Shown here piece after piece: positions 127 through 63,975 of a stretch of DNA of 64,000 bases (the first letter of the stretch is position 1; each line of letters starts with the position of its first letter). This DNA comes from an uncultured Selenomonas sp. (GTDB taxonomy: Bacteria > Bacillota > Negativicutes > Selenomonadales > Selenomonadaceae). Both the position numbers and the translations under genes were made by a program. Below the pieces are notes generated by a model. The model saw only the letters and a list, made by a program, of their open reading frames with translations, had not been told where the DNA came from and made no database searches. The stretch covers positions 1-64,000 of the forward strand of contig CACZFT010000001.1 of NCBI GenBank assembly GCA_902780535.1. Direction: 5' to 3'.

Positions 127-1356
127 ATGAACAAGGAGCAGAAGGCGGCACAGGCGTTTGCGCGGAAGTGGGCCGGGCACGGGGAGGAGAAGCAGGAGAG
201 CCAGATTTTCTGGATGGAGCTCTTGCAGAAAGTGCTCGGTGTGGAGCATCCGACCGATCTCGTGAAATTCGAGGAGCGCGTGAGGCTCTCGCATACGAGC
301 TTCATCGACATCATGATTCCCTCGACGCACACGATGATTGAGCAGAAAAGTTATAAAAAGGAGCTCGACGAGCCCATCAAGCAGTCGGACGGCACGCTCT
401 TGAAGCCGTTCGAGCAGGCGAAACGCTACTCCGCCGCCTTGCCGTACTCCGAGCGGCCGCGCTGGATTGTCATCTGCAACTTCCGCCAGTTCGACCTCTA
501 CGACATGGAGCGTCCGAACGACGCGCCGACGCGCGTTGAGCTCGCGGATTTCCAGAAAGACTACGCCTGCCTCAAAGTCATCGTCGATCGCCAGAGCACG
601 CGCATCCAGAAAGAAATGGACCTCTCGCGCGAAGCGGGCACGCTTGTCGGAAAAATCTACGATGCACTCCTCCCGGCATATGGCCCAGAGCCGACGGCGC
701 AGGACTACCAAGACCTCAACAAGCTCATCGTGCGCCTCGTCTTCTGCTTCTACGCCGAGGACGCCGACCTCTTCGGCAAGAAGGACATGTTCCACGACTA
801 TCTCGCGTCGTTCATGCCCGAGCATTTCCGCACGGGGCTCATGGAGCTCTTCAAAGTCCTCGACCAGAAGCCCGAGGAGCGCGACCGCTTCCTCGAAGAC
901 CGCCTCAAAGCCTTTCCCTACGTCAACGGCAGCCTGTTCACCGAGACCATCCCCGTGCCGCCCATCAATGAAGCGACGCGCCGCCTGATTCTCGAAGACG
1001 GCTGTGGCTTTGACTGGAGCCAGATTTCTCCTACCATTTTCGGAGCTATCTTCGAATCGTCCTTGAACCCCGAAACGCGCCGCCGCGGCGGCATGCACTA
1101 CACGAGCATCGAAAACATCCACAAAGTCATCGACCCGCTGTTCCTCGATGACTATCGTGCGCAGTTCCAAGATGCGATGCAGGAAAAGCAGACGAAGAAG
1201 CGCATCGAAAAGCTCCGCAACCTGCAAGAAGGACTCGGGCGCGGGCGATATTTCGACAAAATGACTACGGCTATGATACGCTCAGAAGCCCGCGAACGCC
1301 TAGGAATCAAGGGCTTTTCAGCGGAACGGCTGGAAAGCCGTGAGGTGGCGGCGTGA
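127..1356 (+). pseudogene. Type IIG (MmeI-like) restriction-methyltransferase, 5' part, interrupted by the prophage
   Basis: The start is an ATG behind a strong AGAGGGGGG site. The first 377 codons are host sequence: an N-terminal nuclease domain with a PD-(D/E)XK-like pattern (D at about 62, then EQK near 75-77, in DIMIP...IEQKS) and a helical linker ending in GGMHYTSIENIHKVIDPLF. In intact type IIG enzymes this linker leads into methyltransferase motif I (FDPACGSGNFL). Here the reading leaves the host gene at the Asp codon (1255-1257) and runs 32 codons into phage DNA (KMTTAMIRS...) before a stop at 1356. The missing motif I lies at the far end of the window (63961-64000) in matching frame. 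The family usually has about 900 or more residues, so the 409-residue product lacks its methyltransferase and target-recognition domains and should not restrict or modify DNA. Confidence 0.88.
1237..1280 (+). other. attL, left prophage-host junction
   Basis: The left side reads as host coding sequence up to GAC at 1255-1257. The right side is phage arm: AAAATGACTACGGC, two bases, then TGATAC at 1274-1279. The phage arm is the approximate mirror of the arm left of GAC at 63961-63963 (GTATCA at 63938). The two arms are 22-23 bp long on each side of a GAC core, the size and symmetry expected for half sites of a large serine integrase attP. The exact crossover dinucleotide cannot be read from the sequence. 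It lies in or next to GAC. Confidence 0.8.
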
Positions 1357-1380
1357 AAGCGGAAGATGGCGTGAACGCAT

Positions 1381-1433
1381 GAAATCCCAATACTGTAACG
1401 ATAGCAGTCGTATCGTTACGGCGTTGGGATTTC
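1381..1433. repeat. 53-bp interrupted palindrome just inside the left end
   Basis: Outer arms GAAATCCCAA (1381-1390) and TTGGGATTTC (1424-1433) and inner arms GTAACGATA (1395-1403) and TATCGTTAC (1411-1419) are all perfect complements. Symmetric 4-base internal loops and a 7-base centre separate them. No T tract follows on the + strand, so it is not a typical rho-independent terminator. It lies between the stop of the truncated host gene and the first cargo gene. It could be a terminator-like barrier, a protein-binding dyad or part of the integration/excision site. Confidence 0.75.
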
Positions 1434-1530
1434 GTTATATGTTATGACAATTCTTCGGCGGGAAAGCAGGATACTGGCGTGTCCGTATCGAATGAATAAC
1501 AGATAGACATCATGTCAGGAGGGCGAGCCC

Positions 1531-2721
1531 GTGAACAAAACACATCTGGAACAGATTCTTGAGCATTATCTTGAAAATTTCGATACGATGAATGTCGATC
1601 CCAGCACGGAATGGTACAAGTGGAAAATCGCGAAAGCATTTCCAGCGGCGATGGATCGGGCCTTGGCAGCTGCGGCGGACGCGTTTTCGGATGCCTTGCT
1701 GCAGGTTGACAAGCTGACGGAGAATCTGGTCGACAACAAAACGACGCAGCCGTTTTATGGGCTGTGCAAAATGGCCGAACAAGAGCCGGAAGAGGTGCGT
1801 TCTCTGTTCCGCAACCTTTATGCAGATGACGGCGGAGACCTCGTCGTTCGTTCCAAGAAAATCCATGACTTCGTGGCGAAGAGCAACGACTTGTGCGAGC
1901 GATGCTTCCCTGGGAGCTTCCGCTACAAGAATGATGCGCATGCGGCAACGACGTATTTGTTCTTGTATGCCCCGGACGAGAATTATCTCTACAAGCCGAT
2001 GGAAGCGCTCGATTTTTCGACGTATGTTGAGTTTTATGAGGACTGGGGGCGGGGAGAGGCGTTCCATCTGGATGCCTATTATCGGATGTGCGACCAGCTG
2101 GTGTCAGCCATGCAGGAGCATCCGACGTTCCTCGCAAAGCGGCAGGAGCTCTGGGAACAGCTGCATCTTTCGCCGGAGGAAATGCACCCGGACACCAAGC
2201 ATCATATCTTGGCGGTAGACCTCATTTATTGCTGCAAGACGTACGGCCTTTTCGATGGCATCCATCCCAAGCCGCGTCCATCGAAAAAGCGCAAGGAAGA
2301 AACGCCGCAGGTTGACGTTACTGCTCTCGTAGCAGAATACCGAGAAGCGGAACGGGTGGAAAAGAAGCGCAGGGAGGCCGAGGCCTATCTTCATCAGGTG
2401 CTCGCCTCGGGTGCGCACGTCCATCATAAGAAATTTGGCGATGGCATCATCCAGCAGGTGAAGGTCACGAGCCAAGGAAAAGAATCCGTCGTGGTGGCTT
2501 TCCCGAACGAAGGAGAAAAGGAGCTCGGCTCGATCGAAGTGGCAATCTATGGAATCCTTGATGCGGTCGCCGGCGTGCCAGATTTCGCCGAGCGTGTCCA
2601 AGCGCTCCGTGAGGTCTTGCGAAACGGTAATAGCATAAAGAAAACGTACGAGGATTGCCGCAAAAATCTCCAGCCGTATCGTGAGGAACTTGGCGAAGAT
2701 TTTGATGGTTTGGAAGGCTGA
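1531..2721 (+). CDS. Unknown cargo protein with a UvrD-tail-like C-terminal segment
   Basis: GTG start 7 bp after AGGAGGG; 396 residues. No signal peptide or membrane segment is visible. The first 250 residues are helical and not recognised. After a lysine-rich linker (residues about 250-290, KPRPSKKRKEE) there is a segment near 297 reading HHKKFGDGIIQQV followed by VAFPNEGEKELG. It resembles the small Tudor-like domain at the C-terminus of UvrD/PcrA helicases (pattern H-KFG-G-V ... F-GEK). No helicase motifs are present. The gene is 35 bp upstream of the DUF262 gene in the same direction, so the two probably form an operon and may act together in defence. Function is not established. Confidence 0.7.
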   Translation: MNKTHLEQILEHYLENFDTMNVDPSTEWYKWKIAKAFPAAMDRALAAAADAFSDALLQVDKLTENLVDNKTTQPFYGLCKMAEQEPEEVRSLFRNLYADDGGDLVVRSKKIHDFVAKSNDLCERCFPGSFRYKNDAHAATTYLFLYAPDENYLYKPMEALDFSTYVEFYEDWGRGEAFHLDAYYRMCDQLVSAMQEHPTFLAKRQELWEQLHLSPEEMHPDTKHHILAVDLIYCCKTYGLFDGIHPKPRPSKKRKEETPQVDVTALVAEYREAERVEKKRREAEAYLHQVLASGAHVHHKKFGDGIIQQVKVTSQGKESVVVAFPNEGEKELGSIEVAIYGILDAVAGVPDFAERVQALREVLRNGNSIKKTYEDCRKNLQPYREELGEDFDGLEG

Positions 2722-2756
2722 GCGTTTGCCGGGTGTGTTGTCCGTGGAGGTGCGGC

Positions 2757-4535
2757 ATGAAGTCACATGATACGAGTTTGAAAGTCCTGATGCAACAGGT
2801 AGCGTCTGGCGCGGCGCAGTTGCCGGATTTCCAGCGCGGCTGGGTCTGGGATGACGGGCGGATTCGTGCGCTCATCTACAGCGTCATTCGGAACTTCCCT
2901 GTGGGCGCGGCGATGTTCCTCGAGTATGGGAATCCCGAGATCCAGTTCCGTTATCAGCCCATCGAAGGCGCTCCGGCTTCGGCGGCGAGCGAAAAGCCGT
3001 CCATGCTGATTCTCGACGGGCAGCAGCGCTTGACGTCGCTTTACAATGCGATGTACGCCGCGCATCCCGTCAAGACGCAGACGGAGAAGAAGCAGCCCAT
3101 CGAGCGGTACTATTATCTCGACATCGAAAAGGCGCTGGACCCTTCGTCGGATGCGGACGAGATTGTCCGTTCCATTCCCGCGACGAAGCTCGTCACGTCG
3201 AATTTCGGGAGGACGGTGGAGCTCGATGTCACGACGCAGGAGAAGGAATTCGAGCACAAGTTGTTCCCGTTGAACATCATCTTGGATTTTGTGAAGGCGC
3301 AGGACTGGCAGAACAAGTATTATGCGTACCATCATTTTCAGCCGGAGGTCATCGCGGAGTTCACGCAGTTCAGCACGAAGTTCGTCATGACAACGATGGA
3401 ATATGCGATGCCGGTCATCACGCTGGAAAAGGACACGCCGAAGGAAGCGGTTTGCCAGGTGTTCGAGAATGTCAATACGGGCGGCGTTTCGTTGACGGTC
3501 TTCGAGCTCGTGACGGCAGTGTTCGCCATGCATAATTTCCCGCTGCGCAAAGATTGGGAGGAGCGGCAGAAGAAATATTTCTCGGATGAGATTTTGTCCG
3601 TGCTCACGGCAACGGATTTCTTGACGGCGCTGACGCTGCTCGCGTCTTATAAAGGCAACCGGACGGTCAGCTGCAAGAAGAAGGACGTGCTGAACCTGAC
3701 GTTCGAGGACTATCAGACGTATGCGGATGCGCTTTGCGATGGCTTCGTGCTCGCACGGAATTTTTTGAAGGAAGAGCGCATTTTCTCGCGGAAAGACCTG
3801 CCGTACACGACGCAGCTGATTCCGCTCGGCGCGATCTGTACCGTGCTCGCGGGAGAGCACCAGCTCATGACGAAAGTCGTGCGCGACAAGGTGCGCCGCT
3901 GGTATTGGTGCGGCGTGTTCGGCGAGCTCTACGGCTCGGCAAACGAGACGCGCTATGCCAATGACATCGTGCAGGTGGTCGCGTGGGTCAAGGGTGGCGA
4001 TTTGCCGAAGACGGTGACAGATGCGTATTTCAACCCGCGCCGTCTGCTCGGCATGCAGTCGCGTCAGTCCGCGGCCTACAAGGGCATCATGGCGCTCATC
4101 TTGAAGAACAAAAGCCGCGATTTCATCTCGGGCGTCGAGATGGACTTCACGTGCTTCGCGGATGAAAACGTGGATATCCATCACATCTTTCCGCGTGCCT
4201 ATGCGGAGTCCATGCATTACGAGAAGGCGAAGTGGAACAGCGTTGTGAACAAGACACCGATTTCTGCGAAGTCGAACCGCACGATCGGCGGTGACGCGCC
4301 GTCGAAGTATCTCGGAAGCCTAGAGCGGGCGGGGGCCATCACGCCAGAGAATCTGGACGAGATTGTCGAGACGCATTGGATTGACCATGAGCTCCTGCGG
4401 AAGGACGAGTTCGAAGCGTTCATCGTGGATCGCGCGAAGAAGCTCCTCGACGCCATCGAGCAGGCGACCGGGATGCCCGTGTCCGGGCGCGACTCCGAGG
4501 ATGTCGTGCAGGCGTTTGGGCAGTCACTCAAATAA
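2757..4535 (+). CDS. DUF262/DUF1524 protein, GmrSD-like type IV restriction candidate
   Basis: ATG start 6 bp after GGAGG; 592 residues. The N-terminal DUF262 domain carries LILDGQQRLTSL (about 83-94), the ParB/sulfiredoxin-like nucleotide-binding motif of the GmrS class. The C-terminal HNH-type DUF1524 domain carries VDIHHIFPRAYAE near 470-482. Known GmrSD proteins use nucleotide hydrolysis to cleave DNA with glucosylated hydroxymethylcytosine, and relatives act against other modified phage DNA. Both catalytic motifs are present, so the enzyme looks intact. It follows the unknown 1531-2721 gene and ends at a bidirectional terminator. As prophage cargo it would protect the lysogen from competing phages. 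The substrate here is unknown. Confidence 0.85.
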   Translation: MKSHDTSLKVLMQQVASGAAQLPDFQRGWVWDDGRIRALIYSVIRNFPVGAAMFLEYGNPEIQFRYQPIEGAPASAASEKPSMLILDGQQRLTSLYNAMYAAHPVKTQTEKKQPIERYYYLDIEKALDPSSDADEIVRSIPATKLVTSNFGRTVELDVTTQEKEFEHKLFPLNIILDFVKAQDWQNKYYAYHHFQPEVIAEFTQFSTKFVMTTMEYAMPVITLEKDTPKEAVCQVFENVNTGGVSLTVFELVTAVFAMHNFPLRKDWEERQKKYFSDEILSVLTATDFLTALTLLASYKGNRTVSCKKKDVLNLTFEDYQTYADALCDGFVLARNFLKEERIFSRKDLPYTTQLIPLGAICTVLAGEHQLMTKVVRDKVRRWYWCGVFGELYGSANETRYANDIVQVVAWVKGGDLPKTVTDAYFNPRRLLGMQSRQSAAYKGIMALILKNKSRDFISGVEMDFTCFADENVDIHHIFPRAYAESMHYEKAKWNSVVNKTPISAKSNRTIGGDAPSKYLGSLERAGAITPENLDEIVETHWIDHELLRKDEFEAFIVDRAKKLLDAIEQATGMPVSGRDSEDVVQAFGQSLK

Positions 4536-4612: not shown

Positions 4613-6940
4613 TCAGGCGCTGGTTGTTTCTGGCGAGCCGCATGCGGCTCGAGATGTTTCCATCATTTTCTGATAGTGCTGCTCCTGGCCCATGGCCTTG
4701 AAAATAAGGCGGAAGGCTTCTCGGTAGGGTTGGGCGTCGGTTGCGTCATCGACGTAATGGGCATCGTGCCCGAAGTCGTTCGGCGCGGCGATATAGCGCA
4801 GCAGCGCTTCTGCGGGATGATATTGCGTCATGTCGGGCCGGCCACTTTCGGGAGCCGGCTTCTTGAGTTTTCCCAGCACCTCGGCACGCAGTTTTTTGCG
4901 GTCGTAGGAACACATCTGGATGAAGTAGTAATCCAGAATTTGCCGGATGGCGTGGATGACCGAGATGGTCGAGTTGGCTTCCTGCAATTGCGTCCAGAGG
5001 GCTTGGTAGTTGTTTTGCACGGGATTGTAGTTGATGGTTCTGGGCAGGCTGCTCGCCGGGTCTTGTTTCGTGCAGAGGTAGACGGAGGACTGATTCCCGT
5101 CTTTCAGCACTTTGTAAAAATTTGTTGCCTTGAAGTCCTGCACCCATTGATCGGTGACTTCCATGTGGAAACGGATGTTGTGCGTCAGGATGAAGATTTG
5201 CTTGATGTACCCGCCTGTGTCTTGCGGATCGTGATAATCCGCCGTGCTGTGGCACACCTCCAGCAATTCTCGGATGAGGGAACTGACGATGAACAGGACG
5301 CCGTCATCCATGCTGGAGACCGGGTCGTCGATGACCACGATTTTCTTCTTCTGCTGGCCGTCCTCGCGGCCTCCCTTGACTTGGTGATAGAAGTAGAGGA
5401 ATGCGATGAACTGCAGCTCGCCTTCGCTGAGGTTTTCCGCGATGCTGCCATCGGCGCGGACGATTTCGTAATGGTTCCGGTATGCTTTTGATTCGCGCAG
5501 GCGGAATCCTTGGAAGCCGGTATAGCGCAAGGTGTCGTTGATCTGGTTCATCACGTCGACGGTGCTGACGATTTCCTTGCTCAGGTTCGCGATTTTGCTT
5601 TCGATGGAAGCCTTTTCTTTTTGCAGGGCATTGAGCGCTTTCGATGCGGCAGCGCAGGATTTTTCGGCGTTCTTGAGATTCTTGTCATACGCCGACAGAT
5701 CGTCTGCTACAAGGGATTTCAAGTATTCCAAAATCTGTCGCTTGCATTTTGCCTGCTGGTTTTTCTGGTCGTCGATGATGGCATTGTATGCATCGATTTT
5801 CTTGTTGAAATCTTCGACGAGCTGATTCAATTCGCGAATGATGGGAAGAATCGGCTTGAGCTCCGCTGCGGGCTGCCCCGGCATCTTGAGCTTTTCGTCG
5901 AGGCGTTGCCGGTTGAGCTCGATGCCATCCTGCAACTTCTCTAGCAGGCCGTCGTAGGCATCCCAATCGAGCGATTGGGGCAGCGGCTTGCTTTTGTTGG
6001 AAATGAGCATCTGGAGAGCGTTGTCCGCAAAGGACAGGTAGGTGCTCCGAAGCAGGGAGAGCTGGCGTGTCTTTTCCTTGTATTGTTCGTCAAAGACGGA
6101 AGCCAGCTGCTCTTCAAAATCATCGGGAAGCGTCTGCTGGCAATATGGGCATTTGCCATTGGCTTCGTGTGAAAAGCGATGATGCCCGTCCTTGACCCAG
6201 TCCACGGCTCCGAGCGCGGTCAAGAATTGCGCGAATTGGGATTCGCTGCTGCTGGTGATGCTTTCGGCGAGCAAGTGGAGATGCTCGTCGATCACGGCAG
6301 GGCATTGTTCCGGCGCGAGATGAAGTTTTTCAAGCTTGCTTTTCGCTTTTCCGAATGCAGTCGCGGCGGTTGTCTTCAAGGCTTCGAGGTCATGCGATTC
6401 AACCGCGAGCTCCTTGTCGGACATGGCGTTATAAAAGGAGTCCTTTTTCTTGATTTTCAAGTCGATAGCCTTAAAATCTTCGCGCTCCTTTTTTGTCTTT
6501 TCCCAGATGGTATCCCGCATCGCAGGGTACAAAGCAGACTTATCATCTTCCTTTTCACGCTTGTCTTTTTCGGCAGCCTGCACCTTGCCCTTGGCTTCGT
6601 TTAATTTTTCCTCGAGCGCGGCAATCTGTTCTTCTTTTTCATTGTTGCCCTTGCAGATGGTGTAGATGCCATGCAGCTGCTTGTAGTTCGAGACTTCTTC
6701 GGAGACGAACTCGCGATTGTAGATCAGAATTTCGTAATCCTCGGGCGCGACGCCATCGATCCATGTCAGATGGGCTTGGCTTCCGATGCTTCGCGCGATC
6801 GTGGATTTGCCCGTGCCGTTTTCGCCATAGAAGAAATTGATGACGCTTGGCTTGATGGTCGCAGGGTCAGCTTGGAACGTGGCTGTATCGATGCGGATGG
6901 CCTGGATGGCTGGGCATTTTTTCTCGTTCTGGGTCGACAT
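4613..6940 (-). CDS. ABC/SMC-type ATPase with zinc hook (AAA_13, RloC-like)
   Basis: The start is the ATG at 6940, 6 bp after AAAGGAG, giving 775 residues. Walker A GENGTGKST lies at 39-47. A long coiled coil is broken by CPYC at 264-267, a zinc hook as in Rad50 and RloC. The ABC signature LSEGEL is at 504-509, Walker B VIDDPVSSMDD at 536-546 and the H-loop THN at 586-588. The last 190 residues contain NYQALW and IRQILDYYF. The placement R666-x3-D670 and a later GHDAH (725-728) loosely recall the R-E-H triad of PrrC/RloC anticodon nucleases, with Asp for Glu. It is the last gene of a three-gene leftward operon. The protein probably senses DNA damage or invasion and controls an effector. Whether its own C-terminus is a nuclease is uncertain. 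Confidence 0.85.
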   Translation of the reverse strand: MSTQNEKKCPAIQAIRIDTATFQADPATIKPSVINFFYGENGTGKSTIARSIGSQAHLTWIDGVAPEDYEILIYNREFVSEEVSNYKQLHGIYTICKGNNEKEEQIAALEEKLNEAKGKVQAAEKDKREKEDDKSALYPAMRDTIWEKTKKEREDFKAIDLKIKKKDSFYNAMSDKELAVESHDLEALKTTAATAFGKAKSKLEKLHLAPEQCPAVIDEHLHLLAESITSSSESQFAQFLTALGAVDWVKDGHHRFSHEANGKCPYCQQTLPDDFEEQLASVFDEQYKEKTRQLSLLRSTYLSFADNALQMLISNKSKPLPQSLDWDAYDGLLEKLQDGIELNRQRLDEKLKMPGQPAAELKPILPIIRELNQLVEDFNKKIDAYNAIIDDQKNQQAKCKRQILEYLKSLVADDLSAYDKNLKNAEKSCAAASKALNALQKEKASIESKIANLSKEIVSTVDVMNQINDTLRYTGFQGFRLRESKAYRNHYEIVRADGSIAENLSEGELQFIAFLYFYHQVKGGREDGQQKKKIVVIDDPVSSMDDGVLFIVSSLIRELLEVCHSTADYHDPQDTGGYIKQIFILTHNIRFHMEVTDQWVQDFKATNFYKVLKDGNQSSVYLCTKQDPASSLPRTINYNPVQNNYQALWTQLQEANSTISVIHAIRQILDYYFIQMCSYDRKKLRAEVLGKLKKPAPESGRPDMTQYHPAEALLRYIAAPNDFGHDAHYVDDATDAQPYREAFRLIFKAMGQEQHYQKMMETSRAACGSPETTSA

Positions 6941-6960
6941 GGTTTCTCCTTTCATTTTCG

Positions 6961-7590
6961 TTAAAAGGGAAGAGGGATGCTGTTTCGATGGAAGACGGAT
7001 ATGAGGTTGGCTTCCTTGACCGTCCAATGCGGCGTGTCGAATTCATTGCTGAGGTCTGTATGTCGGAGTTGGAGGTCGGAGACAATCTCGTTCAGCCGCT
7101 GTTGTGGAATCTGTGTAAGAAGGGAATAGCGAATATGGACGGACTGATGGTATCGGGCCATGTCCGTGATTTTTCCGAAATATGCCTGATGGTCAGCGTC
7201 CGTTTTGTTTCCGTGATGGTTCGGACTTGCAAAGATGCAGGGAAACGAGCAGAGCTCTGCCTGCGCGGAAGCGTCAAGGCGGCAGAATCGTTCTTGCAAC
7301 TGCGGGCTGATGCTTTCGTTGAAGACGAGCTCGTTTGGAATCGTCACGTAATTGCGGCAGAGGAATTCTTCTTCGAGGACAATGAGGTTGTAACAGGAGA
7401 GATTCATCGGCTCGTTCGGGAGAGGATTTTGCTGGTGATTGACCGGCGTGGAGAGAGCGATGACGGTCATCTTGTTGTTGTTGATTGTGGAATAAGGGCC
7501 GAGGGCATAGGAGGGGTGGTCGAAGTTGATGGTCGGGACTTCGGCGGGGGATGTCTTCGGGCAGGTGATGGGATGTGATGATTCATTCAT
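6961..7590 (-). CDS. Unknown protein, middle gene of the ABC-ATPase operon
   Basis: About 209 residues from the ATG at 7590 (MNESSHPITC). A TTG at 7602 overlapping the upstream stop is a possible alternative start, but the GAGG lies only 2 bp from it. The gene ends 20 bp before the ATPase start. No membrane segment, signal peptide or known motif is visible. It has a polar N-terminus and a body of mixed helix and strand, with QIPQQRLNEIVSDLQLRHTD near the C-terminus. Three-component systems built around ABC ATPases usually have such a middle component linking ATPase and effector. That role is inferred from position only. Confidence 0.65.
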   Translation of the reverse strand: MNESSHPITCPKTSPAEVPTINFDHPSYALGPYSTINNNKMTVIALSTPVNHQQNPLPNEPMNLSCYNLIVLEEEFLCRNYVTIPNELVFNESISPQLQERFCRLDASAQAELCSFPCIFASPNHHGNKTDADHQAYFGKITDMARYHQSVHIRYSLLTQIPQQRLNEIVSDLQLRHTDLSNEFDTPHWTVKEANLISVFHRNSIPLPF

Positions 7591-9827: not shown

Positions 9828-11810
9828 CTAGTCTTTCTGATAAAACGCGCACTCGTAACCATCCGCCCGGAGCAACAGGCCGTTCATCCACGGCGGCGTG
9901 CGGCTCATCTGTTCGCAGATTTCCGTGATGGTCGTGTTTTTCTCGCACTCGATGATGAGCTCGTCGTGCACATGGGCGCAGATGAATTCGCGGCGCAATG
10001 TCCGCATGGCGTACATGAGGATGTCGCGGCTCGTGGCCTGGACGATGTTCTCGACGAATTTCGGGCCGTAGCTTTCGAGACGTTCCCACTTCTTCGTGAG
10101 GCCGACGCCCTCGTAGGTGACCGACTCGCCGCCGAAGCGGTTGACGCCCATCTGCGGCTTGACGTAGGCGAGCTTGCGTCCGCTCGGGAGTGTGATGAAA
10201 AGGAAGCCGTTGCGATAGGCGAAGCGGAGACTGCCGAGCTTGCTGTCGAGATGCTGCTGGACGGCTTGCTTCACGGCGCGATCGACCGCCCACCAGAACG
10301 CGACGATATTCGTGTTCGCTTCGCGCCAAGCATCGACGAGCGGCTGGAGCTCGGATTCCTGGAGCCCCATATCCAAAGCGCCCATCGCCGTGAGCGCTCC
10401 GACTGAGCCGCCGTAACCAAGGGCCAGCTCCGCAATCTTGCCTTTCTGCCGCAGCTCGCCGTTCACGCCGTGCTTCACGACTGGCACGCCGAACATGCGC
10501 GAGGCGGCGGCGCAGTAGATGTCCCCGTTCTCCGCAAAGACTTTCATGCGCCACGTCTCGCCCGCGAGGAACGAGAGGACGCGAGCTTCGATCGCAGAAA
10601 AATCCGCGACGATGAATTTGCAGCCGTTCCGTGGAATGAACGCCGTGCGGACGAGCTGGGAGAGGACTTCGGGGACGGAGTCGTAAAGCATGGTGAGCGC
10701 GTCGTAATTGCCGTCACGCACGAGCGCACGCGCTTCGGCGAGGTCGGGCAGGCTGTTGCGTCGGAGATTTTGCAGCTGGATGATGCGCCCACTCCAGCGG
10801 CCCGTTCGCGTCGCGCCGTAGAACTGGAACATCCCCCGCGCCCGGCCGTCGGCGCAGACCGCCGTCTGCATTGCCTGATATTTCTTGACGGAAGATTTCG
10901 CCGCTTGCAGCCGCAGGCCGAGAACGGTCTTGACGGGCTCGTTCGCGGTCGGGATGGCCTGCTCGACGTCCTTCTTGCCGAGACTTTCCATCGGTGCGCC
11001 CTGCGCGGCGAGCCAGTCTTTCATCTGTGCGACGGAGTTCGGATTTTCGAGGTGCGTGATGGACTTCATTCGTTCCATCAGCGCCGCCCGCGCACGCTCG
11101 TCGAGCGCGATGGCTTGCGTGACGAGCGTGCGGTCAATCTGGATGCCACGGTCGTTGATTTGCTGATCGAGCGCGTATTCTTCCCAGAGAAATGCTGGCA
11201 CGGGGAACCGGCTGAGCTTCTGCTGGATGGCTTGCTCGACCTCGACGTCGCGCTGGTTGTATGTCTTGAAGAGCGCCCACTTTTCCTGCGACTGCCACGG
11301 CAGATTGCGCGTCCGCATGCCGTTCGCTTTCGTCGGCTTGCACGGAACGCAGAAGTAACGGATGAGCGCTTTGCCTTCCGTCATTTTCTGTTCGTCGAGC
11401 TTCAGCACCGCACCAATGCCTTGAAGCGAGAGCGGCAGGCCGAGCGTCGCGCCCCAGATGCGGGAGCAGCGCCAGCTCGCGGGATTGAGGTAATCCCCAA
11501 TGGCATCGCCGAGCGGGGCGTAGTGGTGGAACGCTTCGGGATGCACCTTGCGCAGCCAGCGTGAGATACAGATGCGCTCGAAGCTCGCGTTGTACGCCCA
11601 TTTGAGCACATCGTCGCAGACAAGTGCGTCGATGAGCTCGTCCGGCAAACTCTCGCCGCACGCGAGGTCGTAGACACGCACCGGCCCGCCGTCGATGCTC
11701 ACGCCGAACAGCAGAATCTCGAACGTTGGCGATTCGACGTAGCGGTACGCGCCCGCTTTCGCGAGATCGACGTCGCTGAACGTCTCGATGTCGATGGATA
11801 GTTTTTCCAT
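9828..11810 (-). CDS. Phage family A DNA polymerase
   Basis: ATG start 6 bp after AGGAGG; 660 residues. The N-terminus has a 3'-5' exonuclease domain beginning SIDIETFSDVDL (5-16). The C-terminal two thirds carry family A polymerase motifs, including DFSAIEARV (motif A, with the catalytic Asp), a Lys/Tyr-containing helix around the O-helix region, and HDELIIECE near the C-terminus (motif C). The size matches the family typical of Firmicute phages, which lack a 5' nuclease domain. It is the last gene of a leftward operon with DUF2815 and DUF2800 and should replicate the phage genome with the primase/helicase encoded on the opposite strand at 14902-17169. Confidence 0.93.
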   Translation of the reverse strand: MEKLSIDIETFSDVDLAKAGAYRYVESPTFEILLFGVSIDGGPVRVYDLACGESLPDELIDALVCDDVLKWAYNASFERICISRWLRKVHPEAFHHYAPLGDAIGDYLNPASWRCSRIWGATLGLPLSLQGIGAVLKLDEQKMTEGKALIRYFCVPCKPTKANGMRTRNLPWQSQEKWALFKTYNQRDVEVEQAIQQKLSRFPVPAFLWEEYALDQQINDRGIQIDRTLVTQAIALDERARAALMERMKSITHLENPNSVAQMKDWLAAQGAPMESLGKKDVEQAIPTANEPVKTVLGLRLQAAKSSVKKYQAMQTAVCADGRARGMFQFYGATRTGRWSGRIIQLQNLRRNSLPDLAEARALVRDGNYDALTMLYDSVPEVLSQLVRTAFIPRNGCKFIVADFSAIEARVLSFLAGETWRMKVFAENGDIYCAAASRMFGVPVVKHGVNGELRQKGKIAELALGYGGSVGALTAMGALDMGLQESELQPLVDAWREANTNIVAFWWAVDRAVKQAVQQHLDSKLGSLRFAYRNGFLFITLPSGRKLAYVKPQMGVNRFGGESVTYEGVGLTKKWERLESYGPKFVENIVQATSRDILMYAMRTLRREFICAHVHDELIIECEKNTTITEICEQMSRTPPWMNGLLLRADGYECAFYQKD

Positions 11811-12433: not shown

Positions 12434-12450
12434 GATTCGTTTCCTCCTGT

Positions 12451-17169: not shown

Positions 17170-17171
17170 AT

Positions 17172-52219: not shown

Positions 52220-52221
52220 TC

Positions 52222-55008
52222 ATGGTACATCCATATTCTTCACGGCGCGGCCTCGGGAAAACCTTCCTCGCCGACCGCCTCAAAGGCGCGCAGTCGTATG
52301 ACCGCCTCGCCGGATATTTTGCTTCCTCCATCGTCGAGCTCGCGGGCGAGGCCATGGAGCAGGTGACGGGCAAAGTCCGCATCCTTTGCAACGCGCACCT
52401 CAAGAAAGCCGACGTCCGCGCCGCCGCGCTCGCGCAGCAGCATGAGTGGTGCGCCATGCACCCGGAAGAGATGTATGCCATGCCGGCCGGGCAAAAGCGC
52501 CTCGCGCGCTTCGTCGCGCTCATGGCCTCGGGCAAGCTCGAGATCCGCGTGCTGCCCGATGAAGTCTACGGCCTCATGCATGGCAAAGGCGGCATCATCA
52601 CGTACGAGAACGGGCGGCGGAGCTCGTTCGTCGGCAGCATCAATGAGACGAAGAGCGCGTTCGCACTGAATTACGAACTCGCGTGGGAAGACGACGACCC
52701 AAAGATTGCTGACTGGATGCAGGAAGAATTCGACACGTTCTGGCAGAGCCCGTATGCTGTGCCGCTCGCGCAGTTTGTTGTCAAAGATGCCGAACGTATC
52801 GCCGGCCGCTTTGTCTTGCCACTGCAAAACTGGCGTGATCAGAAAGAGCCGCGGCCCGAGCAGGCCGCCGTCGAGGAGCCCGTGTTCCGCGAGGAAAACG
52901 GCCTCTGGGCGCATCAGAAGGCGTTCGTCGAGCAGGCGTTCCGCGCGCATCGCACGAAGGCCGGCGCGCGCTTCGTGCTCGCTGACCAGGTCGGCCTCGG
53001 CAAGACCGTCCAGCTCGCGCTCGCCGCGCAGCTCATGGCGCTCTATGGCGACAAGCCCGTGCTCATCATCGTGCCGAAGACGCTCCTTGCGCAGTGGCAG
53101 GAGGAAATCTTTTCTCTCTTGCATCTGCCGAGCGCTATCTGGCTTGGGAGCGGCTGGCAGGACGAGCAGGGCATGTTTTACCAGGCGGAGGGCGTATCGT
53201 CCATCCTGCGCTGCCCGCGCCGCGTCGGCATCGTCTCCCAAGGCCTCGTGACGCGCCGCACGGAAGCGCGCTCCCTTTTGCTCACGCAAGACTATGAGTG
53301 CGTCGTGCTCGACGAAGCGCATCGCGCGCGCCGGCGCAACGCCGCGAAAAATCCCGACACGCACAAGGCCGACGCGAATTTTCTTCTCGCGTTTCTCCAG
53401 GAAATTTCCCCGCGCACGCACAGCCTCCTCCTCGCGACGGCGACGCCCGTGCAGACGCATACGATCGAAGCGTATGACCTTTTGACTGCGTTGAGCCCAG
53501 CATCTTATGCACCGGCCTACGGCATCCTCGGTGACAATATGAACAGCCTGTGGCGCAAAGAGTCGCAGACGATGCTCGACATCCTTTGCGATGCGAAGCC
53601 CATCCCTCGGAACGCGGTCAAAATCTGGGACCTCATGCGCGATCCGCTACCGCTCCCGGATGCATCGGACACGAGCGCGGCGGCACGCCAGCTTCGGAGC
53701 CTCCGCCAACGCTTGGACCTCTCGGATACGACGTTCGTTCTCCAAGATTATACCTGGCTGCATCGCCAGCGGCACACCATCCAAGACCGCGTGCACGAGT
53801 TGTACCAGTCGTATGATTTTTTGCACACGGAAAATCCCTACATCCGCCACATCATCCGCCGCACGCGCAAGACACTCGAAGAGACGTTGAATCCCGAAAC
53901 CGGCCTGCCGTACCTCCCAAAGATCGACGTGAAGACGTATGACAAGACGGCGCTGCCGCTCCTCGGACCCTACGCCGAGGCGTATCATCAGGCGGAGGTC
54001 TTTTGCCAGCTCTTATCGCATCGCGTGAAAGCGGGCGGCTTCCTCTCGACGATGCTCCTGAAGCGCATCGGCAGCACGATCGTCGCGGGCGAGATCACGG
54101 CGAAGAAGCTCCTCGCATGGACGGAAGCAGGGCGGGACATCCTCGCCGACGAATTCGATGAAGAGATGGAGCTCGACGAGGCGGAGGATGAGGAAGAGGA
54201 CAGCGCGGTGAAAGCTTTGACCGAAGACGAGATCGACGCGCTTCATCTTCTCGTCAAACAGCTCGCGAGCTGCCATGATGAAGACCCGAAGTATGAGAAG
54301 ACGCTCGCCCTTTTGCAGCAGGGCACAAGCGCGCACGATACGCCGTGGCGGGAGCGCGGCTGCATCATTTTCTCGCAGTTCTACGACAGTGCGCGCTTCG
54401 TCGCGGAGAAGCTCTCGCGCGACCTCTCGGGCGAGCGCATTGGCCTCTATGCGGGCGGCGACAAGTCTGGTGTGTATGTGGATGGCACATTCACGCGCGC
54501 GCGCAAAGACGAGCTCAAAGCACAGGTGCGCGCAAGGGAGCTCCGCATCCTCGTCGGCACGGATGCGGCCAGCGAAGGATTGAACCTCCAGACGCTCGCG
54601 ACGCTCATCAACCTCGACCTGCCGTGGAATCCGACGCGCCTTGAACAACGCAAAGGCCGCATTCAGCGCATCGGCCAGGCGAGCGACACGGTGCTCGTCT
54701 ACAATCTTCGCTACAAGGACTCCATCGAGGACAAGGTGCACGAGAAGCTTTCCAAGCGTCTCCAAGCCGTCCACGACCTTTTCGGCCAGGTGCCGGACAC
54801 GCTGTCGGATCTCTGGATTGACGTATTGAATGAAGACGAAGAGCGTGCGAAAGAGCGCATTGATGTCGTGATGAAGCAAAATCCGTTCGTGAACAAGTAC
54901 GACAACATCCCGACGCAGACAAACGATTGGTCCGCTTGCCAAGCCGTACTTTCCAAAGAAGAAGCACAGAAGCAGTTATTGCGGGGCTGGAAGCAGCATA
55001 AGGTGTAG
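52222..55008 (+). CDS. PLD-domain/SNF2-type helicase, effector candidate of the cassette
   Basis: The chosen start is the ATG at 52222; a GTG at 52216 overlapping the previous stop is possible. 928 residues. The N-terminal phospholipase D-like domain has LMHGKGGIITYENGRRSSFVGSINET (H-x-K ... GSxNxT, about 117-142). Motif I LADQVGLGKTVQ is near 253-264, motif II DEAHRARRR near 362, and the C-terminal helicase motifs GLNLQTLATLINLDLPWNPTRLEQRKGRIQRIGQ are complete. The PLD domain could cut DNA that the helicase loads on. Related to, but not the same as, DrmC/DrmA of DISARM. Confidence 0.92.
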   Translation: MVHPYSSRRGLGKTFLADRLKGAQSYDRLAGYFASSIVELAGEAMEQVTGKVRILCNAHLKKADVRAAALAQQHEWCAMHPEEMYAMPAGQKRLARFVALMASGKLEIRVLPDEVYGLMHGKGGIITYENGRRSSFVGSINETKSAFALNYELAWEDDDPKIADWMQEEFDTFWQSPYAVPLAQFVVKDAERIAGRFVLPLQNWRDQKEPRPEQAAVEEPVFREENGLWAHQKAFVEQAFRAHRTKAGARFVLADQVGLGKTVQLALAAQLMALYGDKPVLIIVPKTLLAQWQEEIFSLLHLPSAIWLGSGWQDEQGMFYQAEGVSSILRCPRRVGIVSQGLVTRRTEARSLLLTQDYECVVLDEAHRARRRNAAKNPDTHKADANFLLAFLQEISPRTHSLLLATATPVQTHTIEAYDLLTALSPASYAPAYGILGDNMNSLWRKESQTMLDILCDAKPIPRNAVKIWDLMRDPLPLPDASDTSAAARQLRSLRQRLDLSDTTFVLQDYTWLHRQRHTIQDRVHELYQSYDFLHTENPYIRHIIRRTRKTLEETLNPETGLPYLPKIDVKTYDKTALPLLGPYAEAYHQAEVFCQLLSHRVKAGGFLSTMLLKRIGSTIVAGEITAKKLLAWTEAGRDILADEFDEEMELDEAEDEEEDSAVKALTEDEIDALHLLVKQLASCHDEDPKYEKTLALLQQGTSAHDTPWRERGCIIFSQFYDSARFVAEKLSRDLSGERIGLYAGGDKSGVYVDGTFTRARKDELKAQVRARELRILVGTDAASEGLNLQTLATLINLDLPWNPTRLEQRKGRIQRIGQASDTVLVYNLRYKDSIEDKVHEKLSKRLQAVHDLFGQVPDTLSDLWIDVLNEDEERAKERIDVVMKQNPFVNKYDNIPTQTNDWSACQAVLSKEEAQKQLLRGWKQHKV

Positions 55009-57041: not shown

Positions 57042-58691
57042 ATGAAAACGATACAACGCATCGAGCGGGCGGCCCCGGCTCCGCGAAAACGCCTGCGCGT
57101 CGCGGCCTATGCGCGTGTCTCCGTCGCGTCGGAGCGCATGCAGCATTCGCTTTCCGCGCAGGTCAGCTACTACAGCGCCCGCATCCAGAAGCATCCCGAA
57201 TGGGAGTACGCCGGCGTGTACGCCGACTATGGCATCTCGGGGACAGGCACGGCGAAGCGCGAAGCGTTCCAGGAAATGCTCGCGGCGTGCGAGGCGGGGC
57301 GCATCGACCTCGTCCTCACGAAGTCCATCCAGCGCTTCGCCCGCAACACGGTCGATTTGCTGAAGACCGTGCGGCGGCTGAAGGAGCTCGGCATCGAGGT
57401 GTATTTCGAGAAAGAAAACATCCGCACGCTGAGCGGCGAGGGCGAGCTCCTGCTGACGATCCTCGCGTCGTTCGCGCAGGAGGAGAGCCGCAGCATCTCG
57501 GAAAACATCAAGTGGCGCGTCAAGAAACGCTTCGAGCAGGGCATCCCGAACGGGCGCTTTCGTATCTACGGCTACCGCTGGGAGGGCGATACGCTCGTCA
57601 TCGTGCCGGAGGAAGCCGCCATCGTGCGGCGCATTTTCCAGAACTTCCTCGACGGCAAGTCGCGCCTCGAGACGGAGCGCGAGTTCGCCGCCGAGGGCAT
57701 CACGACACGGGCGGGCTGCCGCTGGGCGGACTCGAACCTCGCGTGCGTCTTGCGGAACATCACCTACACGGGCAACTTGCTCCTGCAAAAGGAATACATC
57801 GAAGACCCGATCACGAAGAAGCGTCGCAAGAATCGCGGCGAGCTGCCGAAGTACCTCGTCGAGCACACGCACGAAGCCATCATCGACCGGGAGACGTTCG
57901 ACTATGTCCAAAAGGAAATGGCGCGGCGCAAGGAGCTCGGCCCGCTCGCGAACAAGGCGCTCCGCACGACGTGCTTCACGGGGAAAATCAAGTGTGGCAT
58001 CTGCGGCAAGAGTTACGTCCATGATTATCGGAATGATAGGAACGCACTCGAATGCTGGACGTGCAGTTCCAAGAAAATCAAGGGCGGGAGCTGCGGAGCG
58101 AAAGGCAGCGTCCCGCACAAGGTGTTATTGCAGGAGTGCGCCGCCGTGCTCGGACTGGATGCCTTTGACGAAGATGCGTTCCTCGCGCAAGTCGAGAAGA
58201 TTGTCGTGCCCGAGCGGCGCGTGCTGGTCTTTTACATGAAAGACGGGCGGCAAATCACGCGCCATTGGACGTCCACGGCGAAGAAAGACTGGTGGACGCC
58301 CGAGCGCCGGCAGGCCGCGTCGGAAGCCCGCAGGAAGCGCGTGATTCATCGGGCGGACATCACCTGTTTTACGGGGCATATCAAATGCACGGCTTGCGGG
58401 CGGAATTTCCAGCGCGATGCGAATCAAGGCAGGATTCCTTACTGGCGGTGTGACGGCAAGGACGCGCCCGGCTTGCGCGAGGACGTCCTGCGGTCGATGA
58501 TTGCCGAGGTGATGGGGCTGCCCGCCTTTGACGAGACGGCCTTTTCCGAGCAGATGGAGCGCATTGAATTTCACGCGCCCGACGAATTGGCATTCTTTTT
58601 CAAGGATGGGCGACAAGCATCCCGCACCTGGGTCAAGCCGAAGAAAATCATGCCACCGAGGGCATTGTGGCATAGAAAGGGGCAGTCATGA
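57042..58691 (+). CDS. Large serine recombinase 1, with duplicated C-terminal module
   Basis: ATG behind GAGGTGAAAG; 549 residues. Catalytic YARVSVASE (Ser27), QRFARNTVDLL and EESRSISENIKWRVKKRFEQG are conserved. After the recombinase domain a zinc ribbon (CGICGKSY ... CWTCSSKK, about 325-352) and a helical segment with YMKDGRQ are followed by a second ribbon (CTACGRNF ... YWRCDG) and FFKDGRQ. The module is thus duplicated. Overlaps recombinase 2 by 4 bp. Catalyses integration and, with a partner, excision. Confidence 0.95.
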   Translation: MKTIQRIERAAPAPRKRLRVAAYARVSVASERMQHSLSAQVSYYSARIQKHPEWEYAGVYADYGISGTGTAKREAFQEMLAACEAGRIDLVLTKSIQRFARNTVDLLKTVRRLKELGIEVYFEKENIRTLSGEGELLLTILASFAQEESRSISENIKWRVKKRFEQGIPNGRFRIYGYRWEGDTLVIVPEEAAIVRRIFQNFLDGKSRLETEREFAAEGITTRAGCRWADSNLACVLRNITYTGNLLLQKEYIEDPITKKRRKNRGELPKYLVEHTHEAIIDRETFDYVQKEMARRKELGPLANKALRTTCFTGKIKCGICGKSYVHDYRNDRNALECWTCSSKKIKGGSCGAKGSVPHKVLLQECAAVLGLDAFDEDAFLAQVEKIVVPERRVLVFYMKDGRQITRHWTSTAKKDWWTPERRQAASEARRKRVIHRADITCFTGHIKCTACGRNFQRDANQGRIPYWRCDGKDAPGLREDVLRSMIAEVMGLPAFDETAFSEQMERIEFHAPDELAFFFKDGRQASRTWVKPKKIMPPRALWHRKGQS

Positions 58692-60253
58692 GAAAAGTCC
58701 ATACGATTCCCGCGACCATCAGCCGGTTTACGGCCACGCCGCTCACGAGCACGAAGCGGCGGCGCGTTGCGGGCTATGCCAGAGTCTCGACCGACCACGC
58801 CGACCAAGTGACGAGCTACGAGGCGCAGGTCGATTACTATACGAACTACATCAAAAGCCGCGAGGACTGGGAGTTCGCGGGAATGTACACCGACGAGGGC
58901 ATCAGCGCGACGAACACGCGTCACCGCGAAGGCTTCAAACGCATGGTCGAGGACGCGCTCGCGGGCAAGATCGACCTCATCATCACGAAGAGCGTCAGCC
59001 GTTTCGCCCGCAACACCGTCGACAGCCTGACCACCGTTCGCAAGCTCAAGGACAAGGGCATCGAGGTGTATTTCGAGAAGGAAAACATCTGGACGCTCGA
59101 CGCGAAAGGCGAGCTACTCATCACCATCATGAGCTCGCTCGCGCAGGAAGAAAGCCGCAGCATTTCCGAAAACACGACCTGGGGCCAGCGGAAACGCTTC
59201 GCCGACGGCAAGGTCAGCGTGCCCTACAAGCGTTTCCTCGGCTACGACAAAGGCCCGGACGGCAACCTCGTCGTGAACCGTGCACAGGCCGAGACCGTGA
59301 AGGACATCTACCGCCTATTCCTCGCGGGCTACACCTTCCACTCCATCGCCGCCGAGCTCACGCGCCGGGGCATCCCCACGCCCGGCGGCTGCAAGAACTG
59401 GAGCCAGAGCACCATCCGCAGCATCCTCACAAACGAGAAATACAAAGGCGATGCGCTCCTCCAGAAGCGCTACACCGTCAATTTCCTCACGAAAGAAACG
59501 CGGGAGAACAAAGGCGAGGTGCCGCAATACTACGTCGAGCACAACCACGAAGCCATCATCCGCCCCGAGGTCTTCGACCAGGTGCAGGAAGAACTGGAGC
59601 GCCGCCGGCACGGCGGCAATCGCTACAGCGGCGTCAGCATCTACTCGTCGAAAATCCGGTGCGGCGATTGCGGCGGCTGGTACGGCGCGAAAGTCTGGCA
59701 CTCCACCGACAAATACCGCAAGACCATCTACCGCTGCAACAACAAGTTCAAGCATCACTGCCAGACGCCGCATCTCACCGAAGCCGACATCCAGCAAATC
59801 TTCCTCCGCGCCGTCAACAAGCTCATCACGGAAAAGCAGGAAATCATCGAAAACATCCGCGACCTGCAACAGACGCTCTGCCAGACGGGCGACCTCGAAA
59901 AGGCGCAAGCACAGCACGAAGCCGACATGAAAATGCTCGCAGGCCTCACGGAACAATGCATCGCCGAAAACGCTCGCATCGCCCAAGACCAAAGCGCCTA
60001 CCAGAAACGCTACGACGACCTCGCCCGCAGGTACGACGAAGCGAAGAAAGCATACGAAGAAGCGTCCGCGGCCATCAAGCGCAGAAAGACACGCGCCAAG
60101 CAGCTGGACGCTTTCATCCAGACGCTCGAAGGGCAGGAGCCGGTGAAGGCGTTCGACGAAACGCTATGGAGCAGCCTCGTCGACTTCCTCACCGTGCATG
60201 GAGAGGGGGATGTGCGCGTCACGTTCAAGGACGGGACGGAAATCAGGGCATGA
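58688..60253 (+). CDS. Large serine recombinase 2
   Basis: ATG overlaps the upstream stop (ATGA); 521 residues. GYARVSTDHADQ (Ser34), SRFARNTVDSL, and EESRSISENTTWGQRKRFADG are intact. Zinc ribbon CGDCGGWYGAKVW...YRCNNKFKHHC, then a long coiled coil (about 390-470), typical of large serine integrases. Tandem pairs like this recall ccrA/ccrB, where both may be needed. Which one acts on the mapped att sites is unknown. Confidence 0.95.
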   Translation: MRKVHTIPATISRFTATPLTSTKRRRVAGYARVSTDHADQVTSYEAQVDYYTNYIKSREDWEFAGMYTDEGISATNTRHREGFKRMVEDALAGKIDLIITKSVSRFARNTVDSLTTVRKLKDKGIEVYFEKENIWTLDAKGELLITIMSSLAQEESRSISENTTWGQRKRFADGKVSVPYKRFLGYDKGPDGNLVVNRAQAETVKDIYRLFLAGYTFHSIAAELTRRGIPTPGGCKNWSQSTIRSILTNEKYKGDALLQKRYTVNFLTKETRENKGEVPQYYVEHNHEAIIRPEVFDQVQEELERRRHGGNRYSGVSIYSSKIRCGDCGGWYGAKVWHSTDKYRKTIYRCNNKFKHHCQTPHLTEADIQQIFLRAVNKLITEKQEIIENIRDLQQTLCQTGDLEKAQAQHEADMKMLAGLTEQCIAENARIAQDQSAYQKRYDDLARRYDEAKKAYEEASAAIKRRKTRAKQLDAFIQTLEGQEPVKAFDETLWSSLVDFLTVHGEGDVRVTFKDGTEIRA

Positions 60254-63030: not shown

Positions 63031-63056
63031 CACATCGGAGGGGAGGGACGGAGACG

Positions 63057-63872
63057 ATGGGCAGCGAGAAGAAAGTGACCTTCGACCAGTATCTTCGGAT
63101 GCGCGACCGCAACGCAGATTATGCGCGTGCGCTCGCACGGACGAATCTGGCCATCCGCTGCTGGGAAAAGGCCGGAGGGAAGGTCTGGTATCTCCCGCTC
63201 ATGTGGATGCTTGACAACCATATCGTGCAAGCGTTTTACAAGCGCTCGGGCATTGACGTGCAGGCAGAGTCCGTGGGTGGGATGTTCGGCTACGGCAGGA
63301 CAGTCGGGATTTTCCCGGAGAGTTGCCATCAGGTCAAAACACCACGGATTCTCGGGCGGATTTCGACTGGGTCGAGTGCTGCGTGGAATCCAAAGATGCG
63401 CGGAAAGGCCATCTCTATGGTGGAAGCGCTCGAGCACGGTGAGAATCCCATCGGCACGATCGAGAGCTCGGCGCTCGCGGCAGTCGGCGGCTGGCCGTCC
63501 CGTTGCACGAAAACGGGATGCCCGCATCAGAAAGATGTGGAGGTCTATCTCACCATTTACCAGATTGTGACGCTCTACGTCGTGATGGAGCAGTCGGAGG
63601 GCACGCCGGCAGCGGGCATTCCGATTCTCGGCACGGAGCTTCGAAGTTCCCCAGACTGGGACAGGGAGCATCATCCTCTGCATCAGGCGGGCTTTTTGAA
63701 GAACAAGAATTTCAGCTATGACTGGTTCGATGTCATGAACGTCTGGATTCACCGCAGGACGGGGACGCTCGTGTGCTTCGAGCACGGCAGCACTCGCGTT
63801 ATCCCGTATGCCGACTGGTGCGGCGGGAGCGTGGAGAAGGGCCTGCGATGGCTTCTGGAGCAGAATGGTTGA
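63057..63872 (+). CDS. Unknown protein beside attR
   Basis: ATG behind GGAGGGGAGG; 271 residues. The N-terminal half (VTFDQYLRMRDRNADYARALARTNLAIRCWEKAGG) is helical. A CTKTGCPHQKD segment near 155 may bind a metal. C-terminal half holds ILGTELRSSPDWDREHHPLHQAGFLKNKNF and aromatic-rich strands. No family is recognised. Last gene before the right end, a usual place for lysogenic conversion genes. Confidence 0.72.
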   Translation: MGSEKKVTFDQYLRMRDRNADYARALARTNLAIRCWEKAGGKVWYLPLMWMLDNHIVQAFYKRSGIDVQAESVGGMFGYGRTVGIFPESCHQVKTPRILGRISTGSSAAWNPKMRGKAISMVEALEHGENPIGTIESSALAAVGGWPSRCTKTGCPHQKDVEVYLTIYQIVTLYVVMEQSEGTPAAGIPILGTELRSSPDWDREHHPLHQAGFLKNKNFSYDWFDVMNVWIHRRTGTLVCFEHGSTRVIPYADWCGGSVEKGLRWLLEQNG

Positions 63873-63877
63873 GCAGA

Positions 63878-63915
63878 TGCACACCCTCCCTTGAAAATGC
63901 ACCCAGGGGTGTGCA
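63878..63915. repeat. Inverted repeat near the right end
   Basis: TGCACACCC (63878-63886) and GGGTGTGCA (63907-63915) are perfect complements separated by 20 bp, about two helical turns. No T tract. It lies 23 bp outside the attR arm and could bind a regulator or excision factor. Confidence 0.7.
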
Positions 63916-63937
63916 AAATCGGGCGCATCGTTACATT

Positions 63938-63975
63938 GTATCACTGACGGCGTCTTGTTTGACCCTGCCTGCGGT
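63938..63975 (+). other. attR, right prophage-host junction
   Basis: The phage arm GTATCACTGACGGCGTCTTG (63938-63957) is followed by TTT and the core GAC (63961-63963), then host coding sequence CCTGCCTGCGG. The arm mirrors the attL phage arm (TGATAC ... GCCGTAGTCAT in reverse). See attL. Confidence 0.8.

Follow-up and report, generated by a model that had tools for sequence, protein, structure and literature searches.

We propose a model in which a temperate phage of the Candidatus (Ca.) Heliusviridae type, equipped with a pair of integrases, uses the DNA of the S-adenosylmethionine (SAM)-binding motif I as its bacterial attachment site (attB) and thereby splits the host enzyme; taken as a whole, this is the explanation that best fits our observations, and we put its probability at roughly 0.87. 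The window, by which we mean the whole 64,000-nucleotide stretch analysed, comes from an uncultured Selenomonas sp. (assembly GCA_902780535.1, contig CACZFT010000001.1, positions 1 to 64,000 of the forward strand), and in it a prophage of 62.7 kilobases (kb) lies within motif I of an MmeI-type IIG restriction-methyltransferase gene (mmeI). The strongest result is that the attB is set at the level of a protein motif and is common to several classes of methyltransferase. According to the model, the phage, which has the Ca. Heliusviridae core genes, would integrate by means of tandem large serine integrases into the DNA coding for motif I of the MmeI-type enzyme, parting the nuclease half from the methyltransferase half; with the halves separated, an enzyme that works as a single chain should be deprived of both activities at once. 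TTC GAC CCT, and with it motif I, would be restored by excision at the same core, and the codons of this motif would provide a landing pad available in many hosts.

The split mmeI gene and its empty counterpart

The broken gene is read from ATG 127 in frame up to D377 (GAC 1255-1257), the Asp of motif I, and then through 32 phage-encoded residues to a stop (read-through tail at 1258..1356, plus strand, from the open reading frame). At the other end of the prophage GAC 63961 restarts the same codon phase, reading DPACGSGNFLTES. The N-terminal fragment (127..1257, plus strand, residues 1-377) comprises the nuclease domain and the helical spacer, as seen from Pfam matches to MmeI_N (9.7e-33) and MmeI_hel (5.6e-20) and from the PADLOC model REase_MTase_IIG (3.7e-112), and the C-terminal fragment, which starts at motif I (63961..64000, plus strand, continuing to ~65610 of contig C1), matches Pfam MmeI_Mtase from profile position 25, MmeI_TRD and MmeI_C. 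All five domains are present in one chain in an intact relative (L028) and are divided two and three between the window fragments.

Among the seven genomes of the genus that were compared, the window's own included, all have some match to mmeI, which is full-length in G005, G003 and G006, in two pieces in G004 and only 76 residues long in G002. The allele of G005 is uninterrupted (L003/L028; 938 amino acids), is neighboured, as read by eye, by pcrA on one side and by dgt, dnaG and rpoD on the other, and represents the empty site: its DNA is 97.3% identical to the window from 99 to 1257 and 99.8% identical from 63958 to 65610, and the two window flanks, when joined, differ from it by one mismatch in 120 base pairs (bp), at -26. 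Six further copies in the genus, several of them cut elsewhere by contig ends or lying in pieces, also continue through the insertion point into PACGSGNF, either with D (L004, L006, L007, L010 and L030) or with E (L014). An earlier note on this DNA had described motif I of a type IIG enzyme, and with it the SAM site, as split by a prophage, had called for a comparison with a strain lacking the prophage and had held that a homologue failing to continue into PACGSGNF would speak against it; the reading frames, the Pfam matches and the empty site of G005 uphold the placement, and the uninterrupted copies all run on into that motif.

The same codon is interrupted in a second lysogen, G004, where a related prophage sits in a different mmeI allele (74% protein identity) with its left end on contig C101 and its right end on C25, and in a viral contig, L112, which has the same right end joined to a third allele. 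That one codon is interrupted in the differing mmeI alleles of G004 and L112 shows that the insertion is not a matter of chance. On the phage side, identity between G004 and the window is mostly 84-95%, falling to ~70% in two stretches and with gaps present, and a further viral contig, L173, is probably the G004 prophage itself, given its identical alignment figures. L172 is a near relative of the window phage whose ends fall outside the contig, with no junction seen. That the outer stretches beside the junctions might be host DNA was considered and dropped, as they recur, as far as the core, at both ends of G004 and at the right end of L112. It is hardly conceivable that misjoined contigs produced these junctions: the assembly is a draft in 223 contigs, and the ends in G004 do lie on different contigs, but the same codon is found in three assemblies with an intact counterpart in a fourth, and 8 more left and 16 more right junctions exist among relatives.

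Relative to G005, a deletion of 70 bp is present at the 3′ end of mmeI (contig C1 65610, L002 ~1811; L028 4639-4708), which deprives mmeI of its stop and the dgt-like gene behind it of its start, so that the two are fused in frame, with HD and HD_assoc domains (Pfam) coming after MmeI_C in the fused frame. The claim of the earlier note that excision would restore the enzyme exactly can thus be retained in part: the rejoined junction restores the frame and motif I, as the empty site of G005 attests, but because of the 3′ fusion excision would yield a fused protein. The dgt of the window genome is left without a start of its own owing to the same deletion. The broken gene does keep its nuclease domain (MmeI_N), as had also been proposed, but the promoter of its own that was ascribed to it finds no support, as a sigma-70-like match was sought upstream of the gene and none was found. 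A promoter-like match, by consensus only, occurs at 63891-63919 on the plus strand, just before the right attachment site, and is aimed at the C-terminal fragment and dgt.

Integrases, attachment core and motif I junctions in relatives

Two complete integrase genes lie in tandem with a 4-base overlap at 58688-58691 (integrase 1, 57042..58691, plus strand, 549 amino acids; integrase 2, 58688..60253, plus strand, 521 amino acids), and both have the domains of large serine integrases (Pfam Resolvase, Recombinase and Zn_ribbon_recom). The left attachment site (attL, 1255..1279, plus strand), as compared with the empty site and the second lysogen, consists of a core GA at 1255-1256 and a phage arm of N17 followed by TGATAC at 1274-1279, and the right attachment site (attR, 63937..63962, plus strand), from sequence comparison, of the phage arm TGTATCA at 63937-63943, N17 and the core GA at 63961-63962. 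Serine integrases are expected to use a symmetric phage attachment site (attP) with a 2-bp core, and the attP reconstructed from both window ends, TGTATCA-N17-GA-N17-TGATAC, is a nearly symmetric inverted repeat centred on GA; these are the bases with which the Asp codon of motif I begins, and they are present in the empty site as well. As attL has the host TTC and attR the phage TTT, the exchange lies within GAC, and the exchanged dinucleotide is most likely GA. Excision would be expected to be precise, and both integrases may take part in the reaction. No intact attP of the window phage was found in the viral contigs, in which the exact right arm matched only L112, an attR. A general palindrome was also tried as attP and rejected, with 28 viral contigs recovered, two of them (L144 and L163) with related integrases and the remainder chance-like. 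Apparent intact palindromes of the form TGTATCA-N17-GA-N17-TGATACA lie at most 0.8 kb downstream of relatives of integrase 2 in L064, L066, L070, L109 and L163.

Relatives were gathered with integrase 2 (the best 80 of 547 loci from named genomes), with integrase 1 (the best 80 of 430 viral loci) and with the first integrase of NatCom_43819 (27 viral loci, overlapping in part with the other sets). Among the loci listed there are 19 right junctions, all with genes for N6-adenine methyltransferases: three in mmeI (window, G004, L112), 11 in HsdM-type genes, four in SNF2-helicase/methylase-like genes (L040, L041, L046, L050) and one in a PglX gene (L176). In the type I HsdM-like loci L032, L038, L039, L043, L045, L048, L053, L069 and L098, TGTATCA-N17-GA is followed by in-frame motif I, and MTase_I is the best PADLOC match for all nine HsdM-like fragments submitted; L276, a human-gut record (PV036412), has its right junction in HsdM, and that of L282 was found by an arm scan, with its class assigned from sequence alone. 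Pfam places N6_Mtase at 52-310 in L032 and both N6_Mtase and ResIII in L046, the fragments of L040 and L041 are cut short at 32 and 18 residues, and the only Pfam match of L050 lies below the cut-off. The PglX assignment of L176 comes from PADLOC (877 amino acids, profile 313-1170 of 1174), with a type IIG model second. Since relatives of the integrase pair occur at this position in genes for HsdM, SNF2-helicase/methylase-like and PglX proteins, the codons of motif I serve as a landing pad. Left junctions number ten, the window and G004 included; in G007, G009, G011, G013, G016, G017, G018 and G021 an HsdM-like N-terminal fragment ends with exactly GA-N17-TGATACA, and the two HsdM halves of Veillonella seminalis ADV4313-2 (G007, L032) share a contig, on which they lie ~53 kb apart. 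The HsdM-like fragment of L123 (G014) also stops at the D of motif I, with no arm scored. The deposited phage genome of L276 (PV036412.1, 9570 onward) seems to contain host HsdM and, by eye, HsdS past the right junction. In a tree of integrase 1, built by a quick method from 90 of 122 sequences (every fourth of the more distant ones and L171 excluded) with Shimodaira-Hasegawa-like approximate likelihood ratio (SH-aLRT) support only, the mmeI phages form one supported group and the HsdM label needs four changes, so that the tree does not establish a single origin of motif I use.

The exact right arm occurs at 61 sites in 190 loci, and 17 of these read into motif I, representing 16 contigs because L112 and L171 are one contig, fetched by arm and by integrase, respectively. 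As controls, 100 permuted heptamers gave no reading into motif I at 1615 sites and six other spacings gave none at 161. When motif I was instead sought without the arm, TGTATCA stood in register at all eight DP-type junctions, seven of which are from integrase loci and the eighth is L112. Kinship of integrase 1 was scored in 163 loci, 56 of them at 54% identity or more (L171 excluded); a motif I junction is present in 13 of the 22 such close loci with at least 3 kb downstream and in 10 of the 16 with 6 kb, and in none of 106 loci below 54% identity, many of which are short.

Several observations weigh against our model. Nine close loci out of the 22 that extend at least 3 kb downstream show no right junction (L033, L034, L088, L101, L174, L186, L189, L190 and L195). 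L033 does have a fitting left junction on its own contig, and a search for N6_Mtase gave no match in the genome of L034 and none in L174 and L186, which are short records; L101 has a left junction on its contig, but in the wrong orientation relative to its integrases, and this junction may be part of a different element. When one right arm was used for an unbiased scan, three viral contigs were returned, only one of which, L282, enters a methyltransferase; in L283 (7474) the arm is joined to motif-I-like DNA outside a methyltransferase, which may be a secondary site, and in L284 (6835) to neither. With one left arm, the corresponding scan came back without a viral contig. Neither the window (TGATACG) nor G004 (TGATGCG) has the consensus left arm, and the constancy of GA, of C at +3 and of GG at +12/+13 is not independent evidence in most relatives, in which the search pattern imposed it. 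Furthermore, serine-recombinase genes are the partners of related integrases in further loci that have the TGTATCA-N17-GA arm, with the joint at a DDGxSG-like motif in six of them (L052, L067, L080, L089, L094 and L108) and elsewhere in the gene in L085. Finally, the mmeI copy with its 3′ deletion may have been damaged before or after insertion, and both excision and the loss of activity in the lysogen are steps that we infer from sequence.

The serine-recombinase junctions bear directly on a serious alternative, to which we give not quite even odds, namely that motif I is used merely because its DNA is conserved and the genes that carry it are dispensable, so that the loss of restriction would be a side effect without selective weight. 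Same-arm integrases at serine-recombinase genes, where the conserved motifs of other families are seemingly used, and the motif-I-like site of L283 outside any methyltransferase are both what such a plain landing pad would produce, and serine-integrase targets are reported, in the portions of the paper available to us, not to be enriched in or near anti-phage defence genes (Durrant et al. 2022, PMC10083194). A plain landing pad is less easily reconciled with three target classes that are restriction or bacteriophage exclusion (BREX) methyltransferases by library match, and it would make a coincidence of the restriction- or defence-like genes that the window phage, two other mmeI phages and L172 all carry in one slot.

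Phage genes, exchangeable cargo and the fate of restriction

The halves of mmeI are separated by terminase, portal, protease, capsid, tail and replication genes, and all nine core genes of Ca. Heliusviridae are matched in the window, VRR_NUC just below the cut-off and by a test other than the BLASTp rule of the authors of that family. On the minus strand are the phage DNA polymerase (9828..11810; phrog_17, 2.4e-137), a PF10991 protein (11876..12454; 7.5e-75), PF10991 being, as we take it, the former DUF2815, and a DUF2800 protein (12451..13578; 2.1e-145). On the plus strand are the VRR_NUC-like nuclease (17214..17591; 1.5e-4, 22.3 bits against a cut-off of 23.8), the SNF2-like helicase (17572..18927; Pfam 8.4e-16; phrog_62), the terminase large subunit (27988..29589; phrog_9, 3.8e-189), the portal protein (31602..32867; phrog_12, 3.2e-146), the head maturation protease (32812..33591; phrog_94, 3.9e-90) and the major head protein (33607..34794; phrog_10, 2.1e-109). 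The shared genes of the family, as given in the sections of the defining paper that we could consult, are DUF2800, DUF2815, DNA polymerase I, VRR-NUC, SNF2-like helicase, terminase, portal, Clp protease and major capsid, and its members are reported there from the bulk viromes of 190 of 196 participants (PMC9226167).

The prophage also carries candidate defence genes. A cargo slot between a holin-like gene and the integrases (45484..55008, plus strand) holds DUF499, DUF1156 methyltransferase and PLD-helicase defence genes (PADLOC 2.6e-173, 1.7e-264 and 1.5e-221), and its contents differ in all four related phages compared: G004 carries PDC-S11 along with a methyltransferase and a nuclease, both of type II (L025 15620-19332), L172 a single-chain pair of cytosine methyltransferases and a type IIG-like protein (1575-9141), and L112 a type IV-like nuclease-helicase and Vsr (81-4960), from a scan of ten proteins of relatives in which two had no match and one had weak matches only. 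The type IIG-like protein of L172 (6541-9141, minus strand; PADLOC 3e-161) is of the same family as the split host gene and has, by eye, no DPACGSG-like motif I, so that it would give the integrase no such attB. A stretch like window 56340-56453 flanks the L172 cargo on both sides (1081-1194; 9332 onward), possibly as a trace of cargo exchange. Outside the slot, a GmrSD_N candidate defence gene lies near the left end (2733..4535, plus strand; Pfam 3.2e-28), with an AAA_13 ATPase candidate (4613..7027, minus strand; Pfam 8.9e-127; PADLOC PDC-S06, 1.6e-189), and an AbiEi/AbiEii-like pair (30096-31579, minus strand; PADLOC) stands between the terminase and portal genes.

A split motif I should remove methylation, and systems that are single-chain or depend on their methyltransferase (type I, type IIG, MmeI) should then lose restriction too; as restriction has this dependence, the activity of the window enzyme is likely to be lost in the lysogen. 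Motif I is intact in two HsdM genes and in one methylase gene of SNF2 type that the host retains, so the lysogen still has restriction genes, and mmeI was the target despite these other motif I genes being present. The earlier suggestion that lysogens become open to new DNA is weakened by the two intact HsdM genes and by the defence-like genes on the prophage. Of the other roles raised in that note, an effect of the expressed fragment and an escape of the phage from self-restriction are conjectural. It is possible, and we hold this tentatively, that insertion disarms the host and replaces what it removes: a methyltransferase-dependent restriction system would be taken out with no toxic nuclease left behind, and the prophage would supply a different defence set. 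In the systems to which PADLOC assigns the targets (type I, type IIG and PglX), restriction is tied to the methyltransferase, either by dependence on it or by a common chain, and the variable cargo of the four phages fits such an exchange. Counting against it, defence genes are common among prophages, and other type I genes are kept in the lysogen. The SNF2-methylase targets in Streptococcus suis, moreover, are located on integrative and conjugative elements (ICEs) and not in resident restriction systems, according to the accessible part of PMC7168690.

A regulated switch, as proposed in the earlier note, in which controlled excision and re-insertion of the prophage, as with comK in Listeria, would keep restriction off in lysogens and turn it on when useful, appears improbable to us. 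The precise junction and the uninterrupted allele in relatives are compatible with a switch, and the study of streptococcal ICEs, in the text available to us, suggests the same idea for insertions in hsdM, rumA and mutT, calling it never studied (PMC4701971). However, the several target classes of related integrases are a better fit to a landing pad than to a tuned switch, two HsdM genes with intact motif I remain in the host, and the 3′ deletion would leave a fused enzyme.

Known systems and the reach of a motif-level attachment site

Integration by serine integrases into hsdM has precedents in streptococcal ICEs with a serine integrase triplet, which insert in hsdM, mutT or traG (Ambroset et al. 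2016, PMC4701971, in the parts seen), and a case of hsdM-type insertion is described from S. salivarius (PMC7563491, likewise in the parts seen). Like the window phage, these ICEs have adjacent serine integrases, and they disrupt hsdM in the manner of its relatives; their direct repeats are very short (2-8 bp), and a return of function on excision has been suggested. Unlike it, they are conjugative and have three integrases, and in the available text hsdM is the sole DNA methylase named and motif I is not mentioned. The window itself has two integrases together with phage structural genes; a conjugation module was not searched for. In S. suis, the serine recombinases of integrative and mobilizable elements (IMEs) target SNF2, the adenine methylase-helicase gene of ICEs (PMC7168690, from the accessible portion), which is the same kind of target as in L046 and, less surely, in L040, L041 and L050. 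These IMEs differ from a phage in being small mobilizable elements, and that portion of the paper does not give the position within the gene. The comK prophage A118 of Listeria (cited in PMC4701971, within the text available) is likewise a serine-recombinase prophage that splits a host gene, but the window target is a restriction enzyme, and regulated excision is described for the comK case. NatCom_43819, assigned to Ca. Heliusvirales, has integrases related to those of the window and a right junction at HsdM motif I; the main text of the Ca. Heliusviridae paper (PMC9226167) contains none of the words recombinase, integrase, methylase and methyltransferase. No statement of motif I as a shared attB was found in the literature searched (PMC7029219, PMC8637289, PMC6109161 and PMC6907783 in addition to the papers cited above), which did not extend to bioRxiv or to most papers behind subscriptions. 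Insertions of elements with serine integrases are thus already published for hsdM and for SNF2-methylase genes.

A more far-reaching extension of our model, which we regard as unlikely in full, is that motif I of restriction and BREX methyltransferases serves a widespread family of gut phages as a near-universal attB, that lysogeny removes methyltransferase-dependent restriction and brings in the defences of an exchangeable slot, and that losing the prophage would set the restored enzyme against an unmethylated chromosome, thereby penalising curing. The finding of a motif I attB ties integration specificity to a protein motif and not to one gene, so that integrases reading the motif I codons can enter hosts with different restriction systems, and it predicts which restriction systems a common gut phage family would remove from its lysogens. 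It also supplies a rule by which attB can be located in draft genomes, along with a set of integrases whose target site is defined. Finally, it makes testable the trade of resident restriction for phage-borne defence that may take place on lysogeny.

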